Below are positions 5,098-63,598 of a DNA stretch of 64,000 nt, one piece after another. The stretch covers positions 209,854-273,853 of the forward strand of contig NZ_LQMT02000020.1 in the NCBI RefSeq assembly GCF_001620365.2. The letters are read 5' to 3'. Origin of the DNA: Amycolatopsis keratiniphila subsp. keratiniphila. GTDB lineage: Bacteria; Actinomycetota; Actinomycetes; Mycobacteriales; Pseudonocardiaceae. The notes beneath the pieces are model-generated. The model was not told the origin of the DNA and searched no databases. It was given only the letters and a program-made list of their open reading frames with translations. Positions within the stretch are counted from its first letter, which is position 1. Each line of letters starts with the position of its first letter. The position numbers were made by a program, and so were the translations under genes.

Positions 5098-5144
5098 ATG
5101 AACGGTCCGTTCCTTGCAAATTTCGCAAGGAACGGACCGTTCAT
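5098..5144. repeat. Nested-core hairpin (GAACG-GTC-CGTTC core)
   Basis: Perfect 20-nt arms (5098-5117, 5125-5144) flank a 7-nt loop, starting 29 nt after the bioY stop. Each arm contains the sub-palindrome GAACG-GTC-CGTTC. The core is identical to the element at 7669-7723. It lies between co-directional bioY and dinG, so it is probably the bioY terminator. Confidence 0.8.
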
Positions 5145-5193
5145 TGCACGGGGCGGACGATCTTGACGGTGCCCCCGGCTATCGTCTTGTCCC

Positions 5194-7251
5194 GTGCCCT
5201 CCCGTGCTGATTTCCCCGGTGTCCTCGAACTCCTGACCCACGCGGTCGAGTCCGTGGGCGGTGCCGAGCGCGAGGGCCAGGTCAAGATGGCGGACGCCGT
5301 CGGCCGCGCCATCCGCACCGGCGAGCATCTGGCCGTCCAGGCGGGCACGGGCACCGGGAAATCGTTGGCCTACCTCGTCCCCGCGATCCGGCACGCGGTC
5401 GAGAAGGAGGCCACGGTCGTGGTCTCCACGGCCACCATCGCGCTGCAGCGCCAGCTCGTCGACCGGGATCTCCCCCGGCTGGCGAAGGCACTCAAGAAGC
5501 CCCTCGGCCGCGAGCCCACCTTCGCGATCCTCAAGGGCCGCCGTAACTACCTCTGCCTCCACCGGCTCGATTCCGGCGCCCCGGACGAGCCGGAAGACCA
5601 GCAGCTGTTCGACCCGTTCGCCGTCTCCCGGCTCGGCAAGGAGGTCACCCGGCTGCGGGAATGGTCCTCCGACACCGAAACCGGCGATCGCGACGAGCTG
5701 GTCCCCGGCGTCTCGGACCAGGCGTGGCGCCAGGTGTCCGTCACCGCCAAGGAATGCCTGGGCGCGTCTCGCTGTCCCATCGGCACGGACTGTTTCGCCG
5801 AGCGGTCCCGCGCCGAGGCGGGCAAGGCCGACGTCGTGATCACCAACCACGCGCTGCTGGCGATCGACGCGCTGCAGGGCTATCAGGTGCTCCCCGAGCA
5901 CGATCTGGTGATCATCGACGAGGCGCACGACCTGGTGGACCGCGTGACCTCGGTGGCGACCGGCGAGCTGACCAGCGGCATGGTCTCCGCCGCCGCCCGG
6001 CGCTGCGGGAAACTGGTCGACGACGAGGTCGCCGATCAGCTGCTGGAGGCGAGCGACGGGTTGGCGCTGATCCTCGACGACCTGCCCTCGGGCCGTATGG
6101 ACTCGCTGCCGCAGGCCCTCACCGGCGCGATCCCCGCGGTCCGCGACGCCGCGCATCGCTGCCTCACCTCGCTCGGTAAGGACCGCAAGGAGGACGTCGA
6201 CGAGGCCACGGCCCGCAAGCTCGCGCGATCGCTGCTCGAAGAAGTCCACGACACCGCGGTCCGCCTGCTCGAGGCCTTCGACGACGACAAGGCGCATCAG
6301 CGTGACGTCGTCTGGCTGACCGGGGACCGTTTCTCCACGAACCCGCGCCCGCCCGCGCTGAAGGTCGCTCCGCTGGGTGTCGCCGGCCTGCTGCGGGAGC
6401 GGGTTTTCAACCAGCACACGACCGTCCTCACCTCGGCGACGCTGACCTTGGGCGGCACGTTCGACACCATGGCTCGCCAATGGGGTCTCCCGCCCGGCGG
6501 GGCCAGGGTCGAGAAGGCGCCGGGCGCGGCGACGGACAAGGCCGCCCCCGCGGACAGTGACGAGGCCGACGGCCCGAAGTGGACCGGCCTCGACGTCGGT
6601 TCGCCGTTCGACCACAAACGCAACGGCATCCTTTACCTGGCCAAACACCTGCCGCCGCCGGGCAGGGACGGGTTGCAGCCTTCGACCATGGACGAGCTGG
6701 CCGAGCTCATCGAGGCCGCGGGCGGGCGCACGCTCGGCCTGTTCTCCTCGATGCGCGCGGCGAAGCAGGCGACGGAGGAGATGCGGGAGCGGCTCGACCT
6801 GCCGATCCTCTGCCAGGGCGACGACGCCACCGGCCTGCTGGTGCAGAAGTTCTCCGAGGACGCGCGCACCTGCCTGTTCGGCACGCTGTCGCTGTGGCAG
6901 GGCGTCGATGTTCCCGGGCCGTCGCTCCAGCTCGTCGTGGTCGACAGGATCCCGTTCCCCCGCCCGGACGATCCGGTCTCGTCGGCCCGGCAGCGGGCCG
7001 TGGAAGCCAGGGGCGGCAACGGGTTCCTCACCGTCGCGGCCACGCATGCCGCGCTGCTGCTCGCGCAGGGCACCGGACGGCTGCACCGTTCGGTCACCGA
7101 TCGCGGGGTCGTGGCGATCCTGGATTCGCGGCTGGCCACCGCCCGCTACGGCGGATTCCTCCGTGCCTCGCTGCCGCCGTTCTGGCCGACCATGGACCCG
7201 AAGGTCGCCCGCGACGCGCTGCGCCGCCTCGACGCGGCCGCCCCGGCCTGA
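5194..7251 (+). CDS. dinG: DinG/XPD-family ATP-dependent DNA helicase
   Basis: This 685-residue superfamily 2 helicase has Walker A GTGTGKS at 51-57 and DEAH at 242-245. Four cysteines (C121, C188, C194, C200) are spaced as in the Fe-S domain of DinG/XPD. The C-terminal motif VI region contains AQGTGRLHR. It is expected to unwind 5'-overhang DNA, R-loops or D-loops in repair. The position beside pncB/clpS matches mycobacterial Rv1329c. The GTG start at 5194 follows a TATCGT box by 8 nt. Confidence 0.92.
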   Translation: MPSRADFPGVLELLTHAVESVGGAEREGQVKMADAVGRAIRTGEHLAVQAGTGTGKSLAYLVPAIRHAVEKEATVVVSTATIALQRQLVDRDLPRLAKALKKPLGREPTFAILKGRRNYLCLHRLDSGAPDEPEDQQLFDPFAVSRLGKEVTRLREWSSDTETGDRDELVPGVSDQAWRQVSVTAKECLGASRCPIGTDCFAERSRAEAGKADVVITNHALLAIDALQGYQVLPEHDLVIIDEAHDLVDRVTSVATGELTSGMVSAAARRCGKLVDDEVADQLLEASDGLALILDDLPSGRMDSLPQALTGAIPAVRDAAHRCLTSLGKDRKEDVDEATARKLARSLLEEVHDTAVRLLEAFDDDKAHQRDVVWLTGDRFSTNPRPPALKVAPLGVAGLLRERVFNQHTTVLTSATLTLGGTFDTMARQWGLPPGGARVEKAPGAATDKAAPADSDEADGPKWTGLDVGSPFDHKRNGILYLAKHLPPPGRDGLQPSTMDELAELIEAAGGRTLGLFSSMRAAKQATEEMRERLDLPILCQGDDATGLLVQKFSEDARTCLFGTLSLWQGVDVPGPSLQLVVVDRIPFPRPDDPVSSARQRAVEARGGNGFLTVAATHAALLLAQGTGRLHRSVTDRGVVAILDSRLATARYGGFLRASLPPFWPTMDPKVARDALRRLDAAAPA

Positions 7252-7308
7252 GTGGCCTGGAACACGGCCGAGTACCGTTAACGGAACGCCGAAGACAGGG
7301 AGAACCGG

Positions 7309-7662
7309 TTGTCCCAGGAGTCGCCCAACGCACAATCCCGGACCGTCAGCGTCGATGACACCGGAGTGCGGCGCCAGCTCGCGGACGGCAGCGAAGAAGC
7401 CGTCACGTGGTCCGAGCTGTCCGCGGTGGTGGTCAGAGTGATCCCTGAAGGCCCGTGGAAGGAAGACGTCTTCTTCATGCTCGCCGGCGCCGACGGGAAG
7501 GGCACCGCGATCCCCAGCGGCGACCCGGCCGCCGACGCGCTGATCGAGCGGTTGCAGACACTGCCCGGCTTCGACAACGAGAAGTTCATCGAGGCCATGA
7601 CCACCGACGCCGACGAGGCGTACGTGGTCTGGAGCGCCGAAGGCCACGCCGCCAAACACTGA
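7309..7662 (+). CDS. conserved hypothetical protein
   Basis: This 117-residue soluble protein has no signal peptide or recognised domain. It contains an ELSAVVVRVIPEGPWKEDVFF segment and a conserved-looking LQTLPGFDNEKFIEAM helix, and ends EAYVVWSAEGHAAKH. The TTG start is chosen because AGACAGGGAGA lies just upstream and the frame has good GC3 bias. It is convergent with the OsmC gene, with a perfect 27-bp-arm hairpin 7 nt after its stop. Similar short proteins occur in actinomycetes. Function unknown. Confidence 0.6.
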   Translation: MSQESPNAQSRTVSVDDTGVRRQLADGSEEAVTWSELSAVVVRVIPEGPWKEDVFFMLAGADGKGTAIPSGDPAADALIERLQTLPGFDNEKFIEAMTTDADEAYVVWSAEGHAAKH

Positions 7663-7668
7663 GCCGAG

Positions 7669-7723
7669 TGCTATGAACGGTCCGTTCCTTGCAAATTTTG
7701 CAAGGAACGGACCGTTCATAGCA
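7669..7723. repeat. Nested-core hairpin (GAACG-GTC-CGTTC core)
   Basis: Two perfect 27-nt arms (7669-7695, 7697-7723) with one base between them form one of the longest perfect palindromes in the window. It sits between convergent genes, 7 nt after one stop and 11 nt from the other. The central 40 nt are nearly the same as at 5098-5144. Confidence 0.85.
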
Positions 7724-7734
7724 TCCGGAGGCGG

Positions 7735-8139
7735 CTACTCGACGGGGAAGCTTTCCGTGACCGGGATGCCCTTCTTCAGCGTCCGGCTCACCGTGCACAG
7801 CCGCTCGATGGCGCGATCCACCGCCGCCGCCAGAGCCTCGCGCTCCGAAGCGGGCAGCGAGGACACGTCGACATCGAAGGCCACATGGACCGCGTCGAGC
7901 TCCGAAGCGTCTTCGCGCCGATCCGCGGTCACACCGACCCGGAACTTCGAGTCCTCACCGATCCGGCGCGTGATGAGGTTCTCGGCGGTGACGGCCGAAC
8001 AGCCCGCCGCCGCGATCTGCAGCAGTTCGGCGGGTGAGAAGGCGCCCTCGGCGCCCTTGCGGCCGATCACGACCTCGGCACCGCGTTCGTTGCGGCCGAT
8101 GAAGCGATGCTCACCGTCGCGCTGGACTTCCAAAGACAC
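7735..8139 (-). CDS. OsmC family protein
   Basis: This 134-residue protein is of the OsmC/Ohr superfamily of thiol peroxidases acting on organic hydroperoxides. The typical core FSPAELLQIAAAGCSAVTAENL carries one conserved Cys. The second Cys is in RAIERLCTVSRTLKKG, as in OsmC subtype proteins. The GTG at 8139 gives the usual VSLEVQRDGEHRF start and is preceded by AAAGGGAAG. It begins 11 nt after the kinase stop on the same strand, so the two may be co-transcribed. Confidence 0.85.
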   Translation of the reverse strand: MSLEVQRDGEHRFIGRNERGAEVVIGRKGAEGAFSPAELLQIAAAGCSAVTAENLITRRIGEDSKFRVGVTADRREDASELDAVHVAFDVDVSSLPASEREALAAAVDRAIERLCTVSRTLKKGIPVTESFPVE

Positions 8140-8150
8140 GGTCTTCCCTT

Positions 8151-9902
8151 TCAGAGTGGCGGCAGCCTGGGGGCGATCTCGCCGGCGAGCCGTTCCGCGG
8201 CCGGGCACATCTCCTGCGGCGGCTTGACCTTGCTCGCGACGTAGATCTCCACCGTCTCGATCATGGCACGACCGTCGCCGGTGAAGCCCCGGTGCGGGAT
8301 CTCCGCCTGACAAGCCTTCCACTCGGAAGAGACCTCGACGAAGGCTTCCCGCGATCCGAGAGCGACGCGTCTGCCGTCGTCCTCGAACGGCGCCCGTTCC
8401 CGTTCGAACCGGATCGTCACCGCGGTCTCACGATGGTTCCAGTAGCACTCCCAGTTGCCGAAGACCGGATCCGGCGTCGCCGGGCCGCCGATGATCGCCT
8501 GCGGCAGGTTCCCGCCCAGCGCGCAGGCGTCGAGGGTCCCGAGCGAACCCGCGGGGAAAGGGGCCGGACGACGTTCGAGCGGTCCGCGGTTCAGCACCCC
8601 GGCGGCGTGCGAGGCGACCGCGTCGGCGTAGTCGCACAGGTGTGCGTGCCAGTTCTGGACATGCCGGGAGTGCACCCAGATCTGGTTGCCGTCCGGCAGT
8701 TCGATGGCCCGCTGGCACTTCTCTTCGGTGTCGCTCGGCCACTCGCGCACGCGCAGCTGCCCGGGCGGGGGCTTCTCCAGCATCGGCGACCCCGGGATGG
8801 TCAGTTCGAGCCGGACGTCGACGACGTCCTGTTCGTCCGGGGTCAGCCTCAGCAGGACACCGCAGGCGTTGAAGTTGCCGCCGGCGGTGTCGAGCCGCGG
8901 AGTCCCGAGGTGCTTCAGCGCGGACGGATCCACCAGCGCGCAGGGGTCGGCGGTGCGCGGGTCGCCGACCGAGTTCATGGGAGTGGGGCCCGCCGCGATC
9001 GACGCGGGTTCCCTCGTGGCGTAGAGCAGGCCACCCGTCAGCATCAGTACCGCCGCGACGGCCGCGATCACGACGGCACGTCTGTTCACCCGGAACCTTC
9101 GCGTCCGTACGGGAACGCTGACGTCCGCGACGTCGGACAGCAGTTCGGCGGCGCGGACGGCGTTCGGTCGCCCGCCGGGTTTGCGCCGCAGCAGTTCCGT
9201 CAGCACGGGCGCCAACGGCCCCGCCCGCCGGAGCGGCTCCAGGCTGTACGCCGTCGCCCGCCGAAGCTGCACGAACGGGCCCACGTTCGCGTCTCCCCAC
9301 ACCGAGGTGCCTTCGACGGCGGCGAACAACGTGGCGCCGAGCGAGAAGACGTCCGCCGCGGCACCCGCCTGCCGCCCTTCGGCCATCTCGGGCGCGACGT
9401 AACCGGGAGTGCCGACGTCGAGGCCGCCGCCGGTGCGGGTGACCTCCGCCCATTGCGCGATCCCCAGGTCGGTGAGTTTGGCGGTGCCGTCGTCGGCCAC
9501 CAGGACGTTGCCCGGTTTGAGGTCGCGGTGGACCATGCCCTTCTCGTGCATCGCCGCGAGCGCCGCGGCGAGCTGGACGCCGATCTTGGCCACCCTGCCG
9601 GGCGGCAGCGGCCCGTCCGAGTCGATGACGTCGGCGAGGCTGCGCGAGGGCAGGTACTCCATCACGAGCCAGCGATCGTCACCGTCGATCACGGCGTCGA
9701 AGACGGTGACCACGTTCGGATGATGCAGGCCCGCGCCGATCCGTGCCTCGCGCCGGATCTGACCGCTGTCCCCGGCCTGCGAACGCTTGAGAGCGACGAC
9801 CCGCCCGAGGTCCAGATCGGTGGCACGCCAGACCACCCCCATACCCCCGGCGCCGATCCGCTCCTCCAAGCGGTAGCGCCCGGCGATCAGCCGATCACCC
9901 AT
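8151..9902 (-). CDS. Ser/Thr protein kinase with extracellular DUF3558-like region
   Basis: The cytosolic kinase domain (about 1-255) has the Gly loop IGAGGMG (16-22), ATP lysine K39, catalytic HRDLKPGN (125-132), DLG in place of DFG (145-147), and GTPGYVAPE. One membrane helix follows (about 276-295). The external half carries DPCALVDPSALKHLG and a LDACALGGNLP segment, resembling DUF3558-type secreted domains. This is the layout of actinobacterial PknB-like sensors, but with no PASTA domains. The ATG follows a TATACT box by 6 nt, suggesting a leaderless mRNA. Confidence 0.9.
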   Translation of the reverse strand: MGDRLIAGRYRLEERIGAGGMGVVWRATDLDLGRVVALKRSQAGDSGQIRREARIGAGLHHPNVVTVFDAVIDGDDRWLVMEYLPSRSLADVIDSDGPLPPGRVAKIGVQLAAALAAMHEKGMVHRDLKPGNVLVADDGTAKLTDLGIAQWAEVTRTGGGLDVGTPGYVAPEMAEGRQAGAAADVFSLGATLFAAVEGTSVWGDANVGPFVQLRRATAYSLEPLRRAGPLAPVLTELLRRKPGGRPNAVRAAELLSDVADVSVPVRTRRFRVNRRAVVIAAVAAVLMLTGGLLYATREPASIAAGPTPMNSVGDPRTADPCALVDPSALKHLGTPRLDTAGGNFNACGVLLRLTPDEQDVVDVRLELTIPGSPMLEKPPPGQLRVREWPSDTEEKCQRAIELPDGNQIWVHSRHVQNWHAHLCDYADAVASHAAGVLNRGPLERRPAPFPAGSLGTLDACALGGNLPQAIIGGPATPDPVFGNWECYWNHRETAVTIRFERERAPFEDDGRRVALGSREAFVEVSSEWKACQAEIPHRGFTGDGRAMIETVEIYVASKVKPPQEMCPAAERLAGEIAPRLPPL

Positions 9903-9908
9903 GCGGGG

Positions 9909-9914
9909 AGTATA
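9909..9914 (-). promoter_or_regulatory. -10 box of the kinase gene, leaderless type
   Basis: On the minus strand TATACT is followed after 6 nt by the kinase ATG, with no Shine-Dalgarno sequence. It lies in the 16-nt gap after the Pth2-type gene, so the kinase probably has its own promoter. Confidence 0.55.
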
Positions 9915-9918
9915 GGAG

Positions 9919-11990
<2,072 letters not shown>

Positions 11991-13769: not shown

Positions 13770-13904
13770 TCCTGCCTCCAACACTCAAACCTTGTGGTGG
13801 TCAATTTGCGGTCGCCGGGCGGGTTCGAGGCCCAATCCGGCGGCTAGTGGGGATCGTAGCCCTCACTACCGACAGTCGCGCGCACCGGCTGGCAAGATCG
13901 GGCC

Positions 13905-14744: not shown

Positions 14745-14854
14745 TCCTCTGGATGCGGCGATGTCGTCCAAGGGGTCTCGTGAGTGGCGATTCGGGTTAG
14801 AACCCGAATCGCCACTCACGACCCACCCCAGCCCGCATCCAGAGGACTAAACGC
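14737..14854. repeat. Hairpin within a hairpin; TTTAGTCCTCTG-family palindrome
   Basis: Outer arms (14737-14758 and 14833-14854, 22 nt, perfect) enclose a second perfect hairpin (14779-14798 with 14801-14820, 20-nt arms, 2-nt loop). The outer arms are the same family as 3601-3662. Each outer arm contains the TAG stop of one convergent gene, both read as GCGTTTAG. Confidence 0.85.
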
Positions 14855-28139: not shown

Positions 28140-28194
28140 TGCAATGAAAGTGTCTTTCCTTGCAAATTTTGCAAGGAAAGACACTTTCATTGCA
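28140..28194. repeat. Nested-core hairpin (GAAAG-TGT-CTTTC core)
   Basis: Perfect 27-nt arms (28140-28166, 28168-28194) with one central base end 34 nt from the dhaM stop. Outer and inner parts (TGCAATGAA, CCTTGCAAA) match 7669-7723. The core differs by compensated changes, GAACG/CGTTC becoming GAAAG/CTTTC. It probably terminates dhaKLM. Confidence 0.85.
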
Positions 28195-36181: not shown

Positions 36182-36240
36182 AAGTACGTGAAGGCCCCCT
36201 TCATTGCGCCTAGCGCAGTGAAGGGGGCCTTCACGTACTT
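36182..36240. repeat. Nested-core hairpin (TGAAGG-CCC-CCTTCA core)
   Basis: Arms of 28 nt (36182-36209, 36213-36240) pair with a single G-T wobble, with a 3-nt loop. It begins 11 nt after the nucS stop. Each arm carries the sub-palindrome TGAAGG-CCC-CCTTCA. It is the probable nucS terminator. Confidence 0.82.
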
Positions 36241-39884: not shown

Positions 39885-39937
39885 GTTGTGAAAGCCACTT
39901 TCGCAACGTTGAAGGTTGCGAAAGTGGCTTTCACAAC
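39885..39937. repeat. Nested-core hairpin (GAAAG-CCA-CTTTC core)
   Basis: Perfect 23-nt arms (39885-39907, 39915-39937) with a 7-nt loop sit between convergent genes, 23 nt after one stop and 24 nt from the other. Each arm is itself almost a full palindrome: GTTG-n-GAAAG-nnn-CTTTC-n-CAAC. Confidence 0.85.
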
Positions 39938-48518: not shown

Positions 48519-49391
48519 GTGAGGTTCACCCCCGCCGCCACCGTCACGGCGATGGCCGCCGCCCTGCTGCTGGGCGGGGCCACCGCCGCGACCGCGATCA
48601 ACTCCTACAACGCCACCCCGGCGCCCGAGCGCACAGAGGTCGGCGCGCTCGTCGCCACCTGGGACGACGACGGCGACCCGGCCACGCCCGACCGGGTCGA
48701 CTGGGTGTGCTCCGGCACCATGGTCGACGCCGACACCTTCCTCACCGCCGCGCACTGCACCACCGGCTGGCCCGCCAACGTGCGGTTCTTCGTCTCGCTC
48801 GACCAGGACGTGCAAGCGGGTCTCGACGCGGCCGCGAAGAAGTACCCCGGCGACCCGGCGGCGGTCGCCAAGGCCGTCGCCGTGGAGGGCGTCGCGCACA
48901 ACGAACCCGGCTATCCCGGCAACTCCGCCGACTCGCACGACATCGCCGTCGTCGAGGTGCCCGCGAAGCAGGTCGCCGCACGCTGGAGCTTCACCCCCGC
49001 GAAGCTGCCCAGTGCCGGTCAGCTCGACAAGCTCGGCCCGCAGGGACTGAACTCGACGCCGTTCGTGGTCGCCGGCTACGGCACGCAGGAAGCCGTGAAC
49101 GGGCCGGGCGGGCACACGCATCCGGGCGGCGGAGTCCGGATGAAGGCGCCCGTCACCTTCAACGCGCTGAACGACACGTGGGTGCGGCTCGCGATGACGG
49201 CGCCCCAGGGCAACGGCGGCGCCTGCTACGGCGACTCCGGCGGGCCGAACTTCGCCACGATCGACGGCAAGCGTGTCCTCGTGTCGACGACCATCACCGG
49301 CGACGGGCCCTGCTACGCCACCAATGTCACCTACCGGCTGGACTCGCCGACGTCGCGTGACTTCCTCGCGCCGTTCGTCGCCCTGCCCTGA
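48519..49391 (+). CDS. secreted trypsin-like serine protease
   Basis: This 290-residue exported protease has a signal peptide of about 26 residues. The catalytic triad is H79 (LTAAHC), D141 (SHDIAVVEV) and S240 (YGDSGGP). Likely disulfides are C64-C80 and C236 with the Cys in GDGPCYA. It is a chymotrypsin-fold S1 peptidase without an obvious pro-domain. A palindrome starts 2 nt after its stop and separates it from murA. Confidence 0.9.
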   Translation: MRFTPAATVTAMAAALLLGGATAATAINSYNATPAPERTEVGALVATWDDDGDPATPDRVDWVCSGTMVDADTFLTAAHCTTGWPANVRFFVSLDQDVQAGLDAAAKKYPGDPAAVAKAVAVEGVAHNEPGYPGNSADSHDIAVVEVPAKQVAARWSFTPAKLPSAGQLDKLGPQGLNSTPFVVAGYGTQEAVNGPGGHTHPGGGVRMKAPVTFNALNDTWVRLAMTAPQGNGGACYGDSGGPNFATIDGKRVLVSTTITGDGPCYATNVTYRLDSPTSRDFLAPFVALP

Positions 49392-49393
49392 TC

Positions 49394-49448
49394 GCGCGTG
49401 AAGGCCCCCTTTCCTCGGCTAAGCCGAGGAAAGGGGGCCTTCACGCGC
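49394..49448. repeat. Nested-core hairpin (GAAGG-CCC-CCTTTC core)
   Basis: Perfect 27-nt arms (49394-49420, 49422-49448) meet at a single base. It lies 2 nt after the protease stop and 6 nt from the murA stop. The same sequence with compensating changes recurs at 63434-63484. Confidence 0.85.
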
Positions 49449-49454
49449 AATCCG

Positions 49455-50790: not shown

Positions 50791-51363
50791 ATGGTCGTTC
50801 GCATCAACCGCGTGTACACGAAGGTCGGCGACAACGGCACCACGGCGCTCGGCGACGGCTCCCGCGTGCCGAAGACCTCGCCCCGGCTGGCCGCGTACGC
50901 CGACGTCGACGAAGCCAACTCCGTCATCGGGCTCGCGCTCGCGATGGGCGGGCTTTCCGAGGAGATCACGCAGGTCCTGCGTGCGGTGCAGAACGATCTC
51001 TTCGACGTCGGTGCGGATCTGTGCGCGCCGATCGTGGAGAACCCGCCGTACGAGCCGCTGCGCATCACCGAGCGGTACATCGAGCGGCTGGAAGGCTGGT
51101 GCGACGAGTTCAACGAGCGCGTGCCGAAGCTGACGTCGTTCATCCTGCCGGGTGGCACCCCGGGGGCGGCTTTCCTGCATCAGGCCCGCACGGTCGCGCG
51201 GCGGGCCGAGCGGTCCGGCTGGGCGCTGTTCGAGGCCGAGCAGGCCGCGACGAACCAGCTGGCGATCAAGTATCTGAACCGGCTCTCGGATCTGCTGTTC
51301 ATCCTGTCGCGGCTGGCGAATCCGGACGGCGACATCCTGTGGCAGCCCGGCGGAGCGGGCTGA
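50791..51363 (+). CDS. cob(I)alamin adenosyltransferase, PduO type
   Basis: This 190-residue enzyme transfers adenosyl from ATP to cob(I)alamin, making the coenzyme used by MeaA. The N-terminal ATP-binding segment is RVYTKVGDNGTTALGDGSRV, with DVDEANSVIGLAL, FILPGGTPGAAFLHQARTVARRAER and YLNRLSDLLFILSR following. These are PduO/EutT-like signatures. The gene order with murA and the atp operon is conserved in mycobacteria. A short hairpin overlaps its stop. Confidence 0.94.
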   Translation: MVVRINRVYTKVGDNGTTALGDGSRVPKTSPRLAAYADVDEANSVIGLALAMGGLSEEITQVLRAVQNDLFDVGADLCAPIVENPPYEPLRITERYIERLEGWCDEFNERVPKLTSFILPGGTPGAAFLHQARTVARRAERSGWALFEAEQAATNQLAIKYLNRLSDLLFILSRLANPDGDILWQPGGAG

Positions 51364-51404
51364 AGGACGCTTTCACCGCATCCGATGCGACGAAAGCGTC
51401 CTTC
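51362..51404. repeat. Nested-core hairpin (GAAGG-ACG-CTTTC core), imperfect
   Basis: 13-nt arms (51362-51374, 51391-51403) and an inner GCATC-C-GATGC stem form a hairpin that begins at the adenosyltransferase stop and faces a convergent small gene. The short arms match the GAAnG-NNN-CnTTC core of the larger elements. Confidence 0.65.
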
Positions 51405-51407
51405 GGC

Positions 51408-52861: not shown

Positions 52862-52867
52862 AGCGTG

Positions 52868-52873
52868 AGCATA
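52868..52873 (-). promoter_or_regulatory. -10 box of aroA, leaderless type
   Basis: On the minus strand TATGCT ends 6 nt before the GTG at 52861, with no ribosome site. aroA is therefore probably transcribed separately from the atp/DUF2550 operon. Confidence 0.5.
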
Positions 52874-52915
52874 CGGCGTGCCCGAACGGCGAACTCGCGT
52901 GATTGAAGGCGTAAC

Positions 52916-53350: not shown

Positions 53351-53375
53351 GGCCCGGCCCCTGTCCTTCGCCCGG

Positions 53376-53741
53376 TCAGACCGACTGACCGGCCGCGCGA
53401 AGCTGGGCGGTCGCCCTAGCCCGCTCTTGCTCGTCTTCGCCGCTCAGCGCCTTCTTGGCCGCGTCGACGTCGATCTCGTCCGAGAGCTCGGCGCTCTCGG
53501 CGAGGATGCTCACGCCGGTCGCGGTGACCGACAGGAACCCGCCGTGCACCGCGGCGGTCACGGTCTCGCCGTCCGTGGTCGTCACCTTCACGACACCACC
53601 CTCGACGAGCTGGCCGAGAACCGGCTCGTGACCGGCCATGATGCCGATCTCGCCCTCGGTGGTCTGCGCCACCACGAACGTGGCGGTACCGGACCAGAGA
53701 CGGCGCTCGACGGCTACCAGCTCGACAGAAATCTCAGCCAC
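53376..53741 (-). CDS. atpC: F1 ATP synthase epsilon subunit
   Basis: This 121-residue protein is the same length as the mycobacterial subunit. [18 protein letters not shown] opens the beta-sandwich; [20 protein letters not shown] is the family core. A C-terminal helix ([15 protein letters not shown]) completes the inhibitory subunit. The GTG at 53741 follows GGGAAG; the frame extends to 53771 without support. Confidence 0.95.
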
Positions 53742-53855
53742 GTAGCTTCCCTTCACCTCAGGTGCTGGCACCGAGTGTAATAGTCAACGATCCCGGTATG
53801 CGAACGACGGGACCAGCGTCCACAGTAGACACTGATCCCGCCGCTCATCGGAACA

Positions 53856-56218
<2,363 letters not shown>

Positions 56219-56229
56219 GAGCTATCAGC

Positions 56230-57867
56230 TCACTTCTTCGGGGCGGGCTTGTTGACCTTGACGGTCTCCTGCCCGACCTTCTCGGCGTCCATCGCGTCGG
56301 AGACCTCGACCAGGCTCTTGCCCTCGGAGGTGGTGAACTCCTTCTTGAACTCGTTCACCGCGTCGACCAGCCCGGCGGCGGTCTCCTTGGAGAACTTGCC
56401 CGACTCGCGGATGTCCTTGAGGAGCTCGCCGTTCTTGCGGCGCGCGGAATCGACGAACTCGTCACGGAAGCGGCGCACGTCCTCGGTCGGGACCGTGTCG
56501 AAGTGGCCGTTGGTACCGAGGTACACGGTGACGACCTGCTCCTCGACCGGAAGCGGCGAGTACTGCGGCTGCTTGAGCACCTCGTACAGGCGGGCACCAC
56601 GCTCGAGCTGCGCCTTCGACGCGTCGTCGAGGTCCGAGGCGAAGGCCGCGAAGGCCTCCAGCTCGCGGTACTGCGACAGGTCGATACGGAGCGAACCCGA
56701 AACGTCCTTCATCGCCTTGACCTGCGCGGCACCACCCACACGGGAGACCGAGATACCCACGTCGATGGCCGGGCGCTGACCGGCGTTGAAGAGGTCCGAC
56801 TGGAAGAAGCACTGACCGTCGGTGATCGAGATGACGTTGGTCGGGATGTAGGCCGACACGTCGTTCGCCTTGGTCTCGATGATCGGGAGACCGGTCAGCG
56901 AGCCCGCGCCCAGCTCGTCCGAGAGCTTCGCGCAACGCTCGAGGAGACGGGAGTGCAAGTAGAAGACGTCGCCGGGGAAGGCTTCACGGCCCGGCGGGCG
57001 ACGCAGCAGCAGCGAGATCGCGCGGTAGGCGTCGGCCTGCTTGGTCAGGTCGTCGAACACGATGAGGACGTGCTTGCCCTCGTACATCCAGTGCTGGCCG
57101 ATGGCCGAACCGGTGTACGGCGCGATCCACTTGAAGCCGGCGGAGTCCGACGCGGGGGCCGCGACGATGGTGGTGTACTCCATCGCGCCGGCGTCCTCGA
57201 GGGACTTCTTCACCGCGGCGATCGTGGAGCCCTTCTGGCCGACCGCGACGTAGATGCAGCGAACCTGCTTCTTCGGGTCGCCGGACTCCCAGTTGGCCTT
57301 CTGGTTGATGATCGTGTCCACCGCGACGGCCGTCTTACCGGTCTTGCGGTCACCGATGATCAGCTGGCGCTGGCCACGGCCGATCGGGGTCATCGCGTCG
57401 ATGGCGGTGATACCGGTCTGCAGCGGCTCGGACACCGGCTGGCGCTCGACCACCGAAGCGGCCTTGACCTCCAGCGGGCGACGCTCGGTGGTCTCGATCT
57501 CGCCGAGGCCGTCGATCGGGGCGCCCAGCGGGTTCACGACGCGGCCGAGGTAGCCCTCGCCGACCGGAACCGAGAGGACCTGACCGGTCCGCTTGACTTC
57601 CTGACCTTCGACGACGGTCTCGAAGTCACCGAGGATCGCGGCACCGATGGAGCGCGCGTCCAGGTTCAGCGCCACGCCGAGGACCCCGCCGGGGAACTCG
57701 AGCAGCTCGTTGGCCATCGCCGAGGGAAGACCCTCGATGTGGGCGATACCGTCACCGGCGTCGATGACGACGCCAACTTCTTCCCGGCTCACGTCCGGGG
57801 CGTAACTCGAGACGTAGTTCTCGATCGCGCTACGGATCTCATCCGAGGAGATCGTCAGCTCCGCCAT
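56230..57867 (-). CDS. atpA: F1 ATP synthase alpha subunit
   Basis: This 545-residue protein has the nucleotide-binding [15 protein letters not shown], the [13 protein letters not shown] motif and a C-terminal extension of about 35 residues ([20 protein letters not shown]). Such extensions are known in mycobacterial alpha subunits, where they suppress ATP hydrolysis. Confidence 0.98.
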
Positions 57868-57921
57868 TTCAATCCCGCTCTCGCTTCGTTCGTGCCAGTG
57901 TGCAAAGTCGTTGTTGTGGGT

Positions 57922-58743
57922 TCAGCCGGCCAGCCGGCGACGCAGGGCGTCGATGCGCCCTGCGGTGCTGCCGTCGATGACCTCGTCGCCGACGCGGACC
58001 ACCAGTCCGCCGCCGAGTGACGGGTCGACCTCGACGTGCAGCGCGAGCTGCCGCCCGTACAGGGCGTTGAGCTTCTCGCTCAGCCGAGCGTGCTGCTCTT
58101 CGGACAGCGCGCTGGCGCTGGTCACCTGGGCGACCGAGCGCTGACGGCGTTCCGCGGCCAGCTGGACCAGCCGCTCGAGGGCGTTGGCGACCCCGCGGCC
58201 CTTGGCGCGCAGGACGACCTGCTCGACGAGGGTCTTGGTGACCACGTCCACCTTGTCGGCGAACAGGGTGCGGACGAGGGTCCGCTTCGCCTCGGCGGGA
58301 GCGGTCAGGTCGGACAAGGCCTGTTCGAGCTCCGGCGCACCCGCAACGATACGAGTGACCCGGAACAGCTGGTCTTCGACAGCGTCGATGTTCCCGGACT
58401 TCTCCGCACTGGTGAGCAGCGCCGAGCGGCCGAGGGCCTCGAGCCCGTCGGTCAGTTCGCGCGGGCTCGACCAGCGGCTGCCCGCCACGGAGTCGAGCAC
58501 CTGCAGGGCCGGTTCGGAAACCTTGCCCGCGAGGACCCCGCGGGCGAGGCCGATCCGGGCTTCGGACGAGGCCGAACCGTCGGCGACGGCCCGGCGCAGG
58601 CCGATCTCCCGGTCCAGCAGGGCGACGACCGAAAGCAGCTCGTCGCCGACCGTCGCCGGGTCCGTACCCGCGGCGGCCAGAACCTCGCCGAGACGCTTCT
58701 CGGCGAGGTCGAGCGCTTCACGGCTCGCAGCATGCAGCGTCAT
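57922..58743 (-). CDS. atpH: F1Fo ATP synthase delta subunit
   Basis: This 273-residue protein is longer than the usual ~180 residues, with an actinobacterial N-terminal extension. The C-terminal conserved region LHVEVDPSLGGGLVVRVGDEVIDGS is clear. In mycobacteria the delta subunit is fused to b; here b and delta are separate genes 6 nt apart. It links the peripheral stalk to F1. Confidence 0.95.
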   Translation of the reverse strand: MTLHAASREALDLAEKRLGEVLAAAGTDPATVGDELLSVVALLDREIGLRRAVADGSASSEARIGLARGVLAGKVSEPALQVLDSVAGSRWSSPRELTDGLEALGRSALLTSAEKSGNIDAVEDQLFRVTRIVAGAPELEQALSDLTAPAEAKRTLVRTLFADKVDVVTKTLVEQVVLRAKGRGVANALERLVQLAAERRQRSVAQVTSASALSEEQHARLSEKLNALYGRQLALHVEVDPSLGGGLVVRVGDEVIDGSTAGRIDALRRRLAG

Positions 58744-58749
58744 TCTGGT

Positions 58750-59307
58750 CTACTTCCCCGCTCCGTTGGAGGCACCAGCGGTCTCCAGCTCGGCAAGGAA
58801 CCGGTCCACGGTGCCGTGGCGGCGCGCGTCGTCCGCGAGCGACTCGCCGACGATGCGGCTGGCCAGCTCGACGGAGTTACGGCCGAGTTCGGCGCGCAGC
58901 TCGGCGATGATCTGCGCCTTCTGGGCCTGCAGCTGAGCCTGCCCCTGGGCGACGATGCGCTGGGACTCGGCTTCGGCCTCGGCCCGCAGCTCCGCCTTGA
59001 TCTGCTCGGCTTCGAGCCGGGCGTCGTCGCGGATCTTCGCGGCCTCGGAACGGGCTTCCGCCAGCTGCGCCTTGTACTGCGCAAGGTTTTCTTCGGCTTC
59101 GGCCTGAGCCTTTTCGGCCCGCTCGATGCCACCCTCGATCAGCTTGGTCCGCTCTTCGTAGGTCGCCTCGAAACGAGGGACCACGTACTTCTTCAGAACG
59201 AACAGCAGCAGAAGGAAGGCGATGAACCCGAGGATGAGCTCGGGAACGTGCGGCACGATCGGGTTGGGCGCCTCCTCGGCGGCCAACACCAATTCGGTCT
59301 TCAGCAC
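58750..59307 (-). CDS. atpF: Fo ATP synthase subunit b
   Basis: This 185-residue protein has one N-terminal membrane helix (ELILGFIAFLLLLFVLKKYV) and a long Ala/Glu-rich coiled coil (KAQAEAEENLAQYKAQLAEA). There is no second b' gene, so a homodimeric peripheral stalk is expected. It lies between atpE and atpH. Confidence 0.96.
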   Translation of the reverse strand: MLKTELVLAAEEAPNPIVPHVPELILGFIAFLLLLFVLKKYVVPRFEATYEERTKLIEGGIERAEKAQAEAEENLAQYKAQLAEARSEAAKIRDDARLEAEQIKAELRAEAEAESQRIVAQGQAQLQAQKAQIIAELRAELGRNSVELASRIVGESLADDARRHGTVDRFLAELETAGASNGAGK

Positions 59308-59340
59308 AACGTCTCCTTAAGCGATGAGCGGAACTCAGCC

Positions 59341-59595
59341 CTAGGCGGAGGCGAGGAAGTAGATGACGATACCGATCAGCGCGAGCACCTCGGTCAGCAC
59401 GAAGGTCGAGAAGGCGATGCCCTGCAGCTTGCCCTGGGCCTCCGGCTGACGGGCGGTGCCGTTGATGACCGCGGCGAAGATGAGACCCACACCGATACCG
59501 GGGCCGATCGCGCCGAGGCCGTAACCGATGGCGGCAAGACCCTTGTTGATGCTGACGGCCTCGGTGGCGGCCTGCGCAAGAACGATGTTGCTCAC
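59341..59595 (-). CDS. atpE: Fo ATP synthase subunit c
   Basis: This 84-residue, two-helix proteolipid has the RQPEAQGKL loop and proton-carrying E69 in [10 protein letters not shown]. Helix 1 has [10 protein letters not shown]; the Asp found there in the mycobacterial bedaquiline site (GIGDG) is Val here. Several copies form the rotor ring. Confidence 0.97.
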
Positions 59596-59656
59596 GTGCG
59601 TTTCCCTTCAAACTCGGTCCGCGCGACTCACGCGGATCGGGGGCTTTTGGTGTTTC

Positions 59657-60454
59657 TCAGTGCTCCGACGCCAGTGCGGCGCCGATGTACCCTGCGGACA
59701 GCAGTGCGAAAATGTACGCCTGCAGGATCTGGATGAATGCCTCCAGGAAGGTCATCGCGATGGCGAAGAGGAATGCCACCGGTGACGCGACCTTCACGAG
59801 TCCTTCGCCCTCGGTCAGCAGGAAACTCCCGCCGAGCGTGAAGACCATGATGATGAGGTGCCCGGCGAACATCGCCGCGAAGACTCGGATGGCCAGGGTG
59901 GCCGGCGCGATGAAGAACTTCTGCGCGAACTCGATGGTGGAGTACAGCGGCAGAACGAATCCGGGAATACCCGCCGGAGCCAGTTCCTTCTTGAGGTAAC
60001 CCTTGAAACCGTGGCGCTTGAACCCGACGTAGTGGTACACCGGGTAAACGACAAGGAACGCGAGGGCGACCGGGAAACCGATCCGCGCCATGGTCGGGAA
60101 CTGGAAGAACGGGATGATCCCGAAGAGGTTGTTCACCAGCACGAAGCTGAACAGCCCCAGGATCAGCGGAATGAACGGCTTGAAGTCGGCCGAACCGATC
60201 TGCTCACGCGCGATGTTGTTGCGGCCGAAGTTGTAAATCGACTCGGCGATGAACTGTCCCTTGCCGGGGACGACCTTGAGCCGGCGCGACGTCACCATGA
60301 AGTAGGTGATGATGATGATCAGGGAGATGACCACCAGCAGCATCGGCTTGGTGAAGCTCAACCAATAGCCGGAACCGAACAACGGCGGCAGGTTGAAGTC
60401 TTTGACACCAGGCGGCGCGAACTCCGCACCCTCGGCTAGTACCAGCGCGCCCAC
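59657..60454 (-). CDS. atpB: Fo ATP synthase subunit a
   Basis: This 265-residue protein has six or so membrane helices. The essential Arg lies in LAIRVFAAMFAGHLI, and the last helix has FIQILQAYIFALLSAGYIGAAL. It forms the proton half-channels. First gene of atpBEFHAGDC; 379 nt separate it from the AtpI-like gene upstream. Confidence 0.96.
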   Translation of the reverse strand: MGALVLAEGAEFAPPGVKDFNLPPLFGSGYWLSFTKPMLLVVISLIIIITYFMVTSRRLKVVPGKGQFIAESIYNFGRNNIAREQIGSADFKPFIPLILGLFSFVLVNNLFGIIPFFQFPTMARIGFPVALAFLVVYPVYHYVGFKRHGFKGYLKKELAPAGIPGFVLPLYSTIEFAQKFFIAPATLAIRVFAAMFAGHLIIMVFTLGGSFLLTEGEGLVKVASPVAFLFAIAMTFLEAFIQILQAYIFALLSAGYIGAALASEH

Positions 60455-60833
60455 TGGGCTCCTTCCGGTTCTCCCGGCCGGCGTTCACTCCGCCGGGGGA
60501 ATCGTCACGATCTGGACTTAACGTACCCGACACGTATCGGGCCGTCGGAGGCGGCCACCCCACGATGTGCTGAACACGGTTTCACGTTCCGCACACGAGG
60601 ATTCTCGATGCAGTGCTCCCGGGAGACAGACGCCTACCAGCGGGTAATGAGGGACGATTCAACGCCGTCGCCACACTGCTGTTCGGGGTTCGTCATCAGG
60701 AGCCGGCAGCCGAGGCCGCCGCCCATACGCGGACCATATCAGCAGGTTCCGACGGGCCGTACAGGCGTACTACATTGCCCCTGATCGGCCGAGGACCTAG
60801 GTCCCGTCCCAGGTCAGGACCTGGGTCCCGAAA
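60455..60833. other. Upstream region of the atp operon
   Basis: There is no convincing gene in this 379-nt gap. It should hold the atp operon promoter on the minus strand. I see TACGTT and TATGGT as possible -10 boxes but no clear -35 partner. Its right end carries paired palindromes, listed separately. Confidence 0.45.
60793..60825 (-). terminator. Paired palindromes after the AtpI-like gene
   Basis: GGACCTAGGTCC (60793-60804) and CCCAGGTC-AG-GACCTGGG (60808-60825) lie 8 nt beyond the AtpI-like stop. They share AGGTC/GACCT blocks and could pair in alternative ways. They may act as a terminator or attenuator between the AtpI-like gene and atpB. Confidence 0.45.
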
Positions 60834-61289
60834 TCAGCGGGAAGCCGGGATGATCGTCGGGATCTTGGTCTTGCGGAAGGCCGCGAACTCCACCGCGGCG
60901 GCCACCAGGATGGCGACGATCATGGTGACGCCCAAGGCCATCGGGTGGATCGAGCTCACCCCGCGGAGCAGGGTCAGCGCCCCGAACAGGAGGACGATCT
61001 TGAGCACGTAACCACCGAGAGCGATCACCATCACGAACATCGGGTCCATGCCCGCGCTGAAGCGCATCAGGCCCAGCGTCGCGAGGGCGGACACGATGGC
61101 GAGCACGCCACCGACGACCGAGCCGAGCAGGCCCGGGAGTCCATTGAGGATGGTGAAGACCACGATGCAGATCAGCACCGCGGGCGGAACCAGCTTCAGG
61201 GAAGCCTTCGTCATCGCGTTGGCCGCCTGCAGAACCACCTTGGCGTGGGGGTTCTCCTCCGCCTCGACGGTCTTCTCGGTCTCGCTCAC
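60834..61289 (-). CDS. AtpI-like membrane protein
   Basis: This 151-residue protein has four membrane helices (LVPPAVLICIVVFTILNG, LLGSVVGGVLAIVSALA, MFVMVIALGGYVLKIVLLFG, MALGVTMIVAILVAAAV). It occupies the Rv1303/AtpI position upstream of atpB. AtpI-type proteins assist c-ring assembly or Mg uptake. The GTG at 61289 (VSETEKTVEAEE) has GGGAG upstream; the frame continues upstream without support. Confidence 0.82.
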   Translation of the reverse strand: MSETEKTVEAEENPHAKVVLQAANAMTKASLKLVPPAVLICIVVFTILNGLPGLLGSVVGGVLAIVSALATLGLMRFSAGMDPMFVMVIALGGYVLKIVLLFGALTLLRGVSSIHPMALGVTMIVAILVAAAVEFAAFRKTKIPTIIPASR

Positions 61290-61345
61290 AGAAAACTCCC
61301 TGGTCGTCTCAGCCCGCCAGTGTAGGCCCGTGCCGATACGGGCCT

Positions 61346-62497
61346 TCAGGCAGTCCGGTTCCGCGACCGCAGTCTCGGCACGATCGACACCAGCGTCGCC
61401 AGCAGGAAGCCGAATCCGACAATCCAGAAAACCGCGACACTGTCGAAGAGTGTCACCGAAACGGCGCCGAACGCGAGCAGCCCCGCCCACAAGTAGATGA
61501 GCAGCACCGCGCGGCGCTGGGAGTGGCCGATCTCCAGCAGGCGGTGATGCAGGTGCATCTTGTCCGCCGCGAACGGGCTCTCGCCGCGTCGGGTGCGGCG
61601 GATGACCGCCATGATCAGGTCGAGCAACGGCACGAACAGCACCGCGGCGACCACCACGAGCGGCGAGAGCAGCGCGAGCGCGTCCTTGCCGCTGAACTGC
61701 GGGTACGGCACGCGGCCCGACGCGGACGTCGTCGCACCGGCCAGCATGAGCCCGATCATCATCGAACCCGAATCGCCCATGAAGATCTTCGCGGGCTGGA
61801 AGTTGTACGGCAGGAAGCCGAGACAGGCCCCCGCGAGCGTGGCGGCGATGAGGGCGGGCGGGTACGCGCCGACGTCGCCGCCCGAGGAGTCGAGCAGGCC
61901 GAGCGAGAAGGAACAGGTCGCCGCGGCGGCGATGAAGCCGAGGCCGCCGGCGAGACCGTCGAGGCCGTCGACGAAGTTCATCGCGTTGACCATGACGACC
62001 ACCAGCACGACGGTCAGCAGCGCGCCCTGGTTCTTGTCCAGTACCAGGACCTGGCCGAAGGAGTCGCCACCGCCGCCCCACGGCACCCAGAACGACACCC
62101 ACTGCACACCGAAGATCACCAGGATCCCGGCGCACATGACCTGGCCCGCGAGCTTCGTCCAGGCGTCCAGCTCGAATCGGTCGTCGAGCGCGCCGATCAG
62201 GGAGATCACCCCCGCGGCGAGCAGGACACCCAGCGAGTCGAAGGAGAAGTCGAAGCCCCGGCTCAGCGCGGGCAGCTGGTGCGCGAGCCCCATCGCGGCG
62301 GCGACACCGAGGAAGATGCCGATGCCGCCCATCCGCGGGATCGGGGTGACGTGGACGTCGCGGGCCCGCGGGTTGGCGATCGCGCCGATCCGGATGGCGA
62401 CCCGGCGCACGACACCGGTGAGCAGGAAGGTCACGGCCGCCGCGGTGAGGGCGACGAGGATGTACTCCCGGATCGGGAGGCCTTGCGTAGGAGGCAT
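61346..62497 (-). CDS. wecA: undecaprenyl/decaprenyl-phosphate GlcNAc-1-phosphate transferase (WecA/Rfe-like)
   Basis: This 383-residue protein has about eleven membrane helices. The MraY/WecA motifs are ALDDRFELDAWTKL (DD Mg site), NFVDGLDGLAGG and FMGDSGSMMIG, with MHLHHRL near the end. It transfers GlcNAc-1-phosphate to polyprenyl phosphate, starting arabinogalactan linker or related glycan synthesis. It matches Rv1302 in position. Confidence 0.93.
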   Translation of the reverse strand: MPPTQGLPIREYILVALTAAAVTFLLTGVVRRVAIRIGAIANPRARDVHVTPIPRMGGIGIFLGVAAAMGLAHQLPALSRGFDFSFDSLGVLLAAGVISLIGALDDRFELDAWTKLAGQVMCAGILVIFGVQWVSFWVPWGGGGDSFGQVLVLDKNQGALLTVVLVVVMVNAMNFVDGLDGLAGGLGFIAAAATCSFSLGLLDSSGGDVGAYPPALIAATLAGACLGFLPYNFQPAKIFMGDSGSMMIGLMLAGATTSASGRVPYPQFSGKDALALLSPLVVVAAVLFVPLLDLIMAVIRRTRRGESPFAADKMHLHHRLLEIGHSQRRAVLLIYLWAGLLAFGAVSVTLFDSVAVFWIVGFGFLLATLVSIVPRLRSRNRTA

Positions 62498-62570
62498 GGT
62501 GCGTTACGCCGCCGAGGTCCAAGTCACTCGAACACGCTACCGCGTCAGGGGGATACGACGGCCGACGGTC

Positions 62571-63221
62571 CTAGGCCAGTGACTCCGCGGGCACACCCAG
62601 TACTTCCGCGACGGCGGCGCGGCTGACCGCGCCCTCCCGCAGGATGACCGGGTCGTCGCCGGTGAGATCGACCATCGTGGACGGAACGGGCTCGCCGGAC
62701 GAGCCGCCGTCGAGGTATACCGCCACGCTGTCCCCGAGCTGGTCGACCGCTTCCTGCGCGGTGGTCGCGGGCGGACGGCCGGACACGTTCGCGCTCGAGA
62801 CCGCCATCGGGCCGACGTCGCGCAGCAGTTCCAGCGCGACCGGGTGCAGCGGCATCCGGAGCATCACCGTTCCGCGCGACTGGCCGAGATCCCACTGCAG
62901 GCTCGGGGCGTGCGGGAGGATGATCGAGAGGTCGCCGGGCCAGAAGGCCTCGATGAGCGCGCGGGCCTGCGGCGGCGTACCGAGCACGAGTCCGTCCACA
63001 GTGGACCAGGAACCGACCAGGACGCCGACCGGCATGTCGGGGCCGCGGTGCTTGGCCCGCAGGAGGGACTGGACGGCGCCGCCGTCGAAGGCGTCCGCGC
63101 CGATGCCGTAGACCGTGTCGGTCGGGAGGACGACCAGACGGCTGGAGCGCACCGCGCTCGCCGCCGCGGCGAGCCCGTCGGCCCGGGATTCGTGCTTGCT
63201 GCAGTCGTACACCGCGCTCAT
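62571..63221 (-). CDS. L-threonylcarbamoyladenylate synthase (Sua5/YrdC)
   Basis: This 216-residue enzyme makes threonylcarbamoyl-AMP for the t6A37 modification of ANN-decoding tRNAs. VVLPTDTVYGIGADAFDGGAV is the substrate-binding core and PLHPVALELLRDVGPMAVSSANVSG the second motif. It starts MSAVYDCSKHESRADGL, 8 nt after a TACGCT box. In mycobacteria prmC and prfA lie upstream; here hairpins and an unrelated gene are found instead. Confidence 0.94.
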   Translation of the reverse strand: MSAVYDCSKHESRADGLAAAASAVRSSRLVVLPTDTVYGIGADAFDGGAVQSLLRAKHRGPDMPVGVLVGSWSTVDGLVLGTPPQARALIEAFWPGDLSIILPHAPSLQWDLGQSRGTVMLRMPLHPVALELLRDVGPMAVSSANVSGRPPATTAQEAVDQLGDSVAVYLDGGSSGEPVPSTMVDLTGDDPVILREGAVSRAAVAEVLGVPAESLA

Positions 63222-63325
63222 GGGCAGTGAGCGTAGCGCCGCGGTGTGGCGGGGCTCGCCAAGGTGCCCGTCTCGGTGCGTTTTTCTCGGCCGGGCGGTC
63301 GTGAATGTCGATTCGGGGCAGGTCC

Positions 63326-63384
63326 GTGAAGGCCTCCTTGCCTACCTTGAAGGTAGTGAAGGAGGCCTTCACTACCTTCAAGGT
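63326..63384. repeat. Overlapping arms able to form two exclusive hairpins
   Basis: Hairpin 1: 63326-63339 pairs with 63359-63372, with an inner CTACCTT-G-AAGGTAG stem. Hairpin 2: 63344-63362 pairs perfectly with 63366-63384 (19-nt arms, 3-nt loop). They use the same central bases, so only one can form at a time. The core GAAGG-CCT-CCTT matches the nested-core family. Confidence 0.75.
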
Positions 63385-63433
63385 CACCACTTGCGGCGCA
63401 CCTGCGACAGCAGCCCCAGCAGTCACAGTGACT

Positions 63434-63484
63434 GCGCGTGAAGGCCCCCTTCCCTCGGCTCAGCCGAGGGAACTCGACCTTCAC
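63434..63484. repeat. Partly decayed copy of the 49.4-kb hairpin
   Basis: The left arm and tip match 49394-49430 closely, including compensating T-A to C-G changes in the upper stem. The lower right arm reads CTCGAC where GGGGG is expected, so the base of the stem is lost. Confidence 0.7.
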
Positions 63485-63543
63485 ACCTTCCCCGGGTACA
63501 TGAAAGCCTCAGATGCGCGCGCCGTGGTACCGAGCCGGGCCAG

Positions 63544-63598
63544 TGTCATGAAAGGGTCGTTCAGGACGTTTTTCGTCCTGAACGACCCTTTCATGACA
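63544..63598. repeat. Nested-core hairpin (GAAAG-GGT-CGTTC core)
   Basis: Perfect 25-nt arms (63544-63568, 63574-63598) with a TTTTT loop begin 13 nt after the stop of the truncated secreted-protein gene. Probable terminator of that gene. Confidence 0.82.

Follow-up and report, generated by a model that had tools for sequence, protein, structure and literature searches.

Dispersed hairpins with paired palindromic arms at gene 3' ends in Amycolatopsis, a probable REPIN-like repeat population

Ten hairpins in the window and their anatomy

In a stretch of 64,000 nt from Amycolatopsis keratiniphila subsp. keratiniphila (GCF_001620365.2, contig NZ_LQMT02000020.1; hereafter the window, its own genome being labelled G000) we analysed a dispersed family of long hairpins whose arms are themselves palindromes of the form GAAnG-NNN-CnTTC. 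Among named species, the closest relatives of one window protein belonged to A. decaplanina, A. oliviviridis, A. orientalis, A. azurea and others, in agreement with the genus. Called stops and called genes refer throughout to an in-house caller based on GC3 (G+C content at third codon positions), not a published one. A preliminary description had reported ten such hairpins, and all ten folded where it had placed them; two were longer than noted, those starting at 5098 and 49394, which extended over 5094-5148 and 49390-49452.

The elements are given here without strand. Element 1 (5094..5148, core 5100-5142), a GAACGGTCCGTTC doublet, was located in a co-directional gap flanked by BioY and helicase genes, and element 2 (7669..7723, core 7675-7717), likewise a GAACGGTCCGTTC doublet, filled a 72-bp convergent gap with an OsmC gene opposite. 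Co-directional gaps also contained element 3 (28140..28194, core 28146-28188; GAAAGTGTCTTTC doublet) and element 4 (36182..36240, core 36190-36232; GAAGGCCCCCTTC doublet). Element 5 (39885..39937, core 39890-39932; GAAAGCCACTTTC doublet) and element 6 (49390..49452, core 49400-49442; GAAGGCCCCCTTT doublet) were found in convergent gaps, the latter filling one of 63 bp. Element 7 (51362..51404), a GAAGGACGCTTTC / GAAAGCGTCCTTC doublet, had its nearest called stop 222 nt away. An alternative hairpin at 63344-63384 overlapped element 8 (63326..63372, core 63328-63370; GAAGGCCTCCTTG doublet), element 9 (63434..63484, core 63440-63482) was a degraded doublet with an altered right arm centre, and element 10 (63544..63598, core 63550-63592; GAAAGGGTCGTTC doublet) was the third in a 390-bp gap, with a called stop 20 nt away. 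The distance from a called stop to the core was at most 41 nt in seven of the ten; for the remaining elements it was 222, 242 and 131 nt, so that the earlier statement that nearly all elements start 0-35 nt after a stop codon was too strong.

A motif-free hairpin scan of the window yielded 14 hairpins with arm lengths of at least 12, against none in three Markov shuffles, and overlapped nine of the ten elements; it missed the one at 63434, in which one arm is degraded. The core GAANGNNNCNTTC occurred 17 times in the window (1.06 expected; maximum of 4 in 100 shuffles), with 16 occurrences inside the reported elements. No match in an Rfam search of the window reached the curated score.

Each unit was an inverted doublet of 13-nt palindromic arms, laid out as arm, 17 nt and arm to give 43 nt, usually with a T before and an A after. 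In the aligned window copies the second core always started 30 nt after the first, a feature absent from the preliminary description; the outer stem and the 17-nt middle were variable. The reported compensation of changes across arms held, and the NNN centres paired across arms in 479 of 543 cells. The palindromic character of the single arm was looser than described, with n and n' pairing in only 107 of 181 distinct elements and forming G/T in another 30.

Copy number, spacing and placement at gene ends

A strict pattern, TGAANGNNNCNTTC-N{3,33}-GAANGNNNCNTTCA, matched 286 sites in the own genome (9.09 Mb in 72 contigs), where the reversed pattern used as a control matched none, and 276 copies had exactly 17 nt between the arms. 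A covariance model built from eight window copies gave 113 strand-wise matches, merged to 57 sites in 464 kb; extrapolated, this density would correspond to about a thousand copies per genome, many of them imperfect. The preliminary description had made its reading depend on genome-wide enrichment of the core in hairpins and on restriction to gene 3' ends, and with 286 sites against a control of zero and a strong 3'-end restriction both were found. Several own-genome hairpins are interrupted by assembly Ns (L020:3216-3267, L027:1620-1680, L020:11032-11079 and L017:2939-2983), and the family is therefore undercounted and truncated in draft genomes.

The spacing between dyads was scanned in 2.007 Mb from the own genome and 13 relatives. 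Here 147 pairs of neighbouring cores lay at exactly 30 nt and at most two at any other spacing below 100 nt, and six scrambled motifs gave 0-2 pairs at 30 nt. A partner at exactly 30 nt was present for 288 of 415 cores. Single cores, considered as possible transposon ends, numbered 95 in 2 Mb, and for 59 of them no degraded partner lay within 70 nt; a single Markov shuffle contained 30 cores. A letter-blind scan, which accepted pairs of 13-nt palindromes whenever their half-sites were identical, recovered 86 pairs at 30 nt and no more than three at any other spacing. Most of these (78 of 86) were GAAnG pairs, four were CAATG and four TCGAA; the TCGAA pairs all come from a single shared stretch, which falls within a called gene in the window (24232). 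The CAATG pairs pointed to a second letter set, CCAATG-NNN-CATTGG, present in 28 of 79 genus genomes (controls 0); 74 of the 75 plus-strand places among the matches listed were 45 nt long with dyads 30 nt apart, with 3-33 nt allowed between the arms. The spacing is thus conserved while the letters change.

Two further arrangements were seen. In G033 arms of the CCAATG set formed a tandem array at L235:3927-4091, where a 30-nt unit, CCAATGCCACATTGGGTGCRTCACAAGCAC, occurred in five copies in direct orientation, of which the fifth ended in CCC, together with a sixth arm with an inverted centre. This six-arm array has a 30-nt period and lies near a gene resembling ileS by eye. At C2:369234, 376262 and 398327 (L034, L035) we found GTGAAGGCCTCCTTGAGGGACCCTGGGTCCCTCAAGGAGGCCTTCAC hairpins of 43-nt geometry in which the arm ends in TTG instead of TTC, probably a variant of the GAAnG family.

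The 57 covariance-model sites comprised 31 in co-directional gaps, 24 in convergent gaps, one in a divergent gap, which had a TTG-type arm end, and one within a called gene. Divergent gaps make up 27% of intergenic bases (gaps of at least 50 bp), and both the deficit of elements there (p = 5.5e-7) and the excess in convergent gaps (p = 1.6e-7) were pronounced. The wider and looser scan of 14 genomes placed 131 of its 228 elements in co-directional and 79 in convergent gaps. Several convergent gaps of 43-76 bp contained hardly more than the element. With convergent gaps enriched and divergent ones avoided, the view of a sequence-specific family at gene 3' ends, in part between convergent genes, was supported.

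As expected of intrinsic terminators, a stable hairpin shortly after the stop codon was common, 42 of the 57 cores lying no more than 58 nt from a called stop. The U-tract of such terminators was lacking, with 0-3 T in the 8 nt following the element in 43 of 45 elements. Terminators mapped by Term-seq in Streptomyces are described as long, stable and U-poor (PMC12207403), and the missing U-tract is in this light compatible with termination. Among imperfect pairs read on the sense strand of 103 distinct co-directional elements, G-U (37) exceeded A-C (17; p = 0.009), other mismatches numbering 60, and this bias favours a hairpin formed in RNA. Convergent gaps are transcribed on both strands, and there the counts were 12 G-U and 17 A-C. 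The gap-type bias and the RNA-level pairing bias in co-directional gaps agree with a family that is plausibly bidirectional; a non-autonomous element is probable.

Distribution and change among genomes

We screened 150 genomes, the own genome included, with the strict pattern. Matches were found in 79 genomes, namely 73 of 80 from the genus, five from other genera of the family and one from another family, and the reversed pattern matched at most once per genome. Copy number within the genus was two-peaked, with at least 40 copies in 40 of the 80 genomes, 1-18 copies in 33, none in seven and nothing between. On a tree of 59 of the 79 genomes, built from one helicase gene, the switch between the two states required ten changes, six of them forced by well-supported branches. 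The sisters G026 (121 copies) and G037 (2 copies) had support of 99/98, and G066 (134 copies) and G004 (17 copies) were sisters with weaker support (87/56); G046 and G067 formed another pair in opposite states, likewise less well supported. The low state means only that the GAAnG letter set is rare; G025, with one strict copy, carries the CCAATG set. In a class-wide screen 4 of 197 genomes matched (own included). One of them, G175 from another family, had 35 copies, of which ten were placed; the gap was co-directional or convergent for nine of these, and for the tenth, at a contig end, its type was indeterminable. The single match in G168 and the two in G224 may be due to chance or convergence.

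Orthologous sites showed that the stem letters change in concert within a genome. All 17 near relatives (DNA identity 91-96%) carried an element in the gap corresponding to 5094-5148, with different core letters in 15 of them; of the 16 relatives whose gap length was recorded, 11 had a gap of 125 bp and two had one of 124 or 126 bp. In the 12 genomes with an element both at this site and at 7669, 2.6 kb away (6 of 18 were omitted for lacking one), the two elements of a genome agreed with each other, with a mean distance of 1.92 of 18 nt versus 4.01 when permuted (0 of 20,000 permutations as low), and orthologues at the two sites differed by 4.30 and 4.17 of 18 nt. The effect was clearest in one subfamily, the copies centred on AAATTTT, for which arms were counted by eye genome-wide: 30 of 39 copies in G000 had the arm GAACGGTCCGTTC (CGGTCCG), and 63 of 69 in the sister genome G072 had GAAAGGTCCTTTC (AGGTCCT). 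In G042 14 of 16 had GAACGGACCTTTC, and in G014 12 of the 17 examined (of 86) had GAAGGGGCCTTTC or its partner arm. In place, all six compared CGGTCCG/CGGGCCG sites differed in G072, five of them reading AGGTCCT (two of the G000 copies contain assembly Ns). Across 11 gaps of similar length with one element in each of G000 and G072, the 43 nt contained 47 differences in 473 positions and the sequence around them 68 in 1404, with a very uneven spread.

For comparison, a hairpin at 11932-11978 kept its letters nearly unchanged in the nine relatives where the scan lists it; it looks like a conventional terminator, GGCGCGTGCCTTGCC...GGCAAGGCACGCGCC, with A/T at both ends. Control hairpins at C2:126684 and 142217 nearly kept their letters in three relatives and one at 349311 in one. 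The subfamily-wise change of the elements, spacer included, suggests copying between like copies more than selection by a changed binding protein.

Gain and loss were counted in gene-anchored gaps between G000 (400 kb) and G072. The element was present in both genomes in 21 of 182 orthologous gaps, in G000 only in seven and in G072 only in six, the last number being overstated since in three of these six (83188, 90809, 221619) the G000 hairpin is interrupted by assembly Ns; at C2:353638 the same element was present in G072. Within the window, the stop codons at the site of element 6 (49394) abut (TGA|TCA) in G018, G072 and G013, and G000 and G031 carry 63 bp there. No hairpin was found at the site of element 2 (7669) in G018 and G013, different hairpins or none were found at that of element 3 (28140) in relatives, and several relatives carry other hairpin families in the gap of element 5 (39885). 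Some sites showed short direct repeats (TGATC in G031) and others stubs left by deletion, and no target duplication is claimed for the GAAnG family. A stem stub at a hairpin-free site indicates deletion and not a pre-insertion site, and we rejected hairpin-free sites as proof of insertion. In the G072 orthologue of C2:67947 the element begins and then gives way to other DNA for about 1.6 kb, which may have inserted into the hairpin.

Possible origin and role of the hairpins, and other repeats

We consider it probable that these hairpins are a REPIN-like population of non-autonomous repeats without a RAYT, handled by a putative factor and, at gene ends, either tolerated or put to use as RNA hairpins. 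REPINs, which the preliminary description did not name, consist of two inverted palindromic REP (repetitive extragenic palindromic) units and a spacer that together form one hairpin, for which a clover-shaped alternative fold has been proposed (PMC3116915). The Amycolatopsis hairpins resemble them in this anatomy, although pairing within the arm is imperfect, as well as in their extragenic position at 286 copies, their several letter classes and their compensatory changes, and the clover fold answers the earlier idea of a four-armed structure. They differ from REPINs in being shorter, with dyads 30 nt apart, compared with 71 bp between the starts of the invariant 16-mers in the GI REPIN (PMC3116915), in having neither a RAYT/Y1 match in the genus nor a GTAG-type tag, and in their strong placement at gene 3' ends and homogenisation in place.

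The spacing, the copy number, the placement, the switching and the homogenisation of one subfamily were observed directly; the mover, the copying route and the termination of transcription by the hairpins we infer. A putative factor would recognise the two arm palindromes by the set distance between them. It might do so while the DNA is single-stranded or, as proposed for REPINs, extruded as a clover. It would place copies of the 43-55-nt unit at further gene ends and overwrite older copies belonging to the unit's own subfamily. Copies might persist where a hairpin after the stop codon is harmless or useful, and those persisting could be U-poor hairpins, as mapped in Streptomyces, that terminate transcription in both directions or protect 3' ends. 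At gene ends the hairpins probably also work as RNA hairpins.

Several results weigh against a REPIN-like population with such a role. The RAYT family (Y1_Tnp, PF01797) had no match in any of the 79 genus genomes searched, with an E. coli positive control detected, and reverse transcriptase (PF00078) showed no relation to copy number (rho 0.03), 10 of 27 genomes free of it holding at least 100 copies. The n and n' positions within the arm were unpaired in 74 of 181 distinct elements, or in 44 if G/T counts as a pair, which weakens a strict arm-hairpin model. Of the 228 elements in the looser scan, 11 fell within called genes and seven in divergent gaps. The G-U bias came mainly from relatives (4 versus 3 in G000 alone), and rows of orthologous elements are not independent. 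Homogenisation was not universal, as two CGGTCCT sites were identical in G000 and G072 and, of six AGGGTCG sites, three kept their arms in G072, two had no element and one had another subfamily. Several hairpin-free sites, finally, retained a stem stub.

Among the alternatives, pairs of sites for a protein binding double-stranded DNA, for example a nucleoid or roadblock factor with dimers 30 bp apart on one helix face, would make the hairpin a by-product. The dyad spacing is indeed close to three helical turns, the array in G033 has six arms at 30-nt steps, and n and n' are partly free where GAA-G/C-TTC is fixed. Such a factor would, however, have no need of NNN centres that pair across arms as often as observed; most cores occur as doublets, and the homogenisation of the spacer along with the arms points to copying. 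We regard this explanation as unlikely.

Ordinary intrinsic terminators, that is long GC-rich hairpins selected only for termination and alike in their letters by descent, are disfavoured as the whole story, and we think it improbable that they suffice. The 3'-end position, the convergent excess and the RNA-level G-U bias would all be expected of them, and the long, stable and U-poor hairpins found 3' of genes in Streptomyces (PMC12207403) are similar. Termination needs neither conserved letters nor a 30-nt ruler, however, and the descriptions of Streptomyces terminators considered here (PMC12207403) do not include a dispersed family with conserved letters and a set spacing. Control hairpins moreover nearly kept their letters in relatives, where GAAnG hairpins changed in concert, and sister species differ in whether copy number is high or low.

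True REPINs moved by a RAYT would share the doublet of palindromes, the extragenic position, the high copy number and the species-specific letters. We rejected RAYT as the mover: beyond the genus result, Y1_Tnp was absent from 9 of 11 further element-bearing genomes (two of them already among the 79), including G175 with its 35 copies; the two genomes that did have it, G084 and G086, are of the same family and hold 6 and 10 copies. REP tags were rare within 14 nt of 51 elements (GTAG 5, GTGG 4, GGAG 3, CGTC 8), and this explanation is in our view very improbable. GTAG/CGTC-tagged REPs (PMC3733652), and REPs as defined in PMC3686654, are likewise short palindromic repeats of high copy number, and the rarity of the tags beside the Amycolatopsis arms sets these apart from the former; four actinobacterial terms had no match in the main text of PMC3733652. 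Retron-like single-stranded DNA made by a reverse transcriptase and replacing homologous hairpins could explain short tracts exchanged in place between shared flanks, and 15 of 18 near genomes have an open frame of about 390 codons with a reverse-transcriptase-domain match, but the lack of correlation with copy number and the absence of a match in G015 (262 copies) and G021 (202 copies) largely refute this idea at Pfam sensitivity and leave it scarcely credible.

The frame just mentioned has its domain match at G000:C18:73466-74104; 14 of 17 near relatives have a counterpart of 390-397 codons, and there is no tie to copy number. The genes between two G175 copies and around the six-arm array of G033 appeared ordinary by eye, with no mover seen (family libraries not run), and no autonomous partner of the kind known for miniature inverted-repeat transposable elements was found in a search limited to PF01797 and PF00078.

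With the REPIN-like reading, the hairpins would represent a REPIN-like system without the transposase regarded as defining that class, in a genus of antibiotic producers, and sister species that naturally differ in copy number would make the putative factor findable. They are also a bacterial case of concerted evolution in place at sites of about 45 nt, and they suggest that gene-end hairpins can come from a spreading repeat. More tentatively, and with somewhat less than even confidence, we propose that a non-Y1 actinobacterial machinery measures the 30 nt between dyads independently of the letters and copies hairpins to new gene ends and over resident copies. If so, sets of 3'-end hairpins would be rewritten together in each species and could rise or vanish between sister species, and gene-end signals would be supplied by a copying population of elements.

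Pairs of DNA uptake sequences in Neisseria and Haemophilus offer another likeness, being a dispersed motif that is inverted at gene ends and makes terminators there; their arms, unlike those in Amycolatopsis, are not known to be palindromic themselves. Among the matches listed from the open-access literature, none described a family of this kind in Amycolatopsis or Pseudonocardiaceae.

Other dispersed repeats accompany the GAAnG hairpins. A second hairpin family, CGTGAGTGGCGATTCGGGTTAGAACCCGAATCGCCACTCACG, was found in the window at 14778-14821 and at C2:53209, 99549 and 390310 (L018, L020, L035), and also in relatives. In G014 a 34-bp hairpin of another family lies between CTACCG repeats; the site is hairpin-free in nine relatives, suggesting a gain. 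Dispersed short units of the CACGCGTGATC type, with letters unrelated to the hairpins, were intergenic at C2:271290-271396 and 382564-382670 (L029, L035). A third hairpin family of about 64 nt, CGCGTTTCGTCCTCTGAATGCGG..., occurred in the window at 3600-3663 and at C2:336461 (L032), and in relatives it fills gene ends where other genomes retain only a stub.

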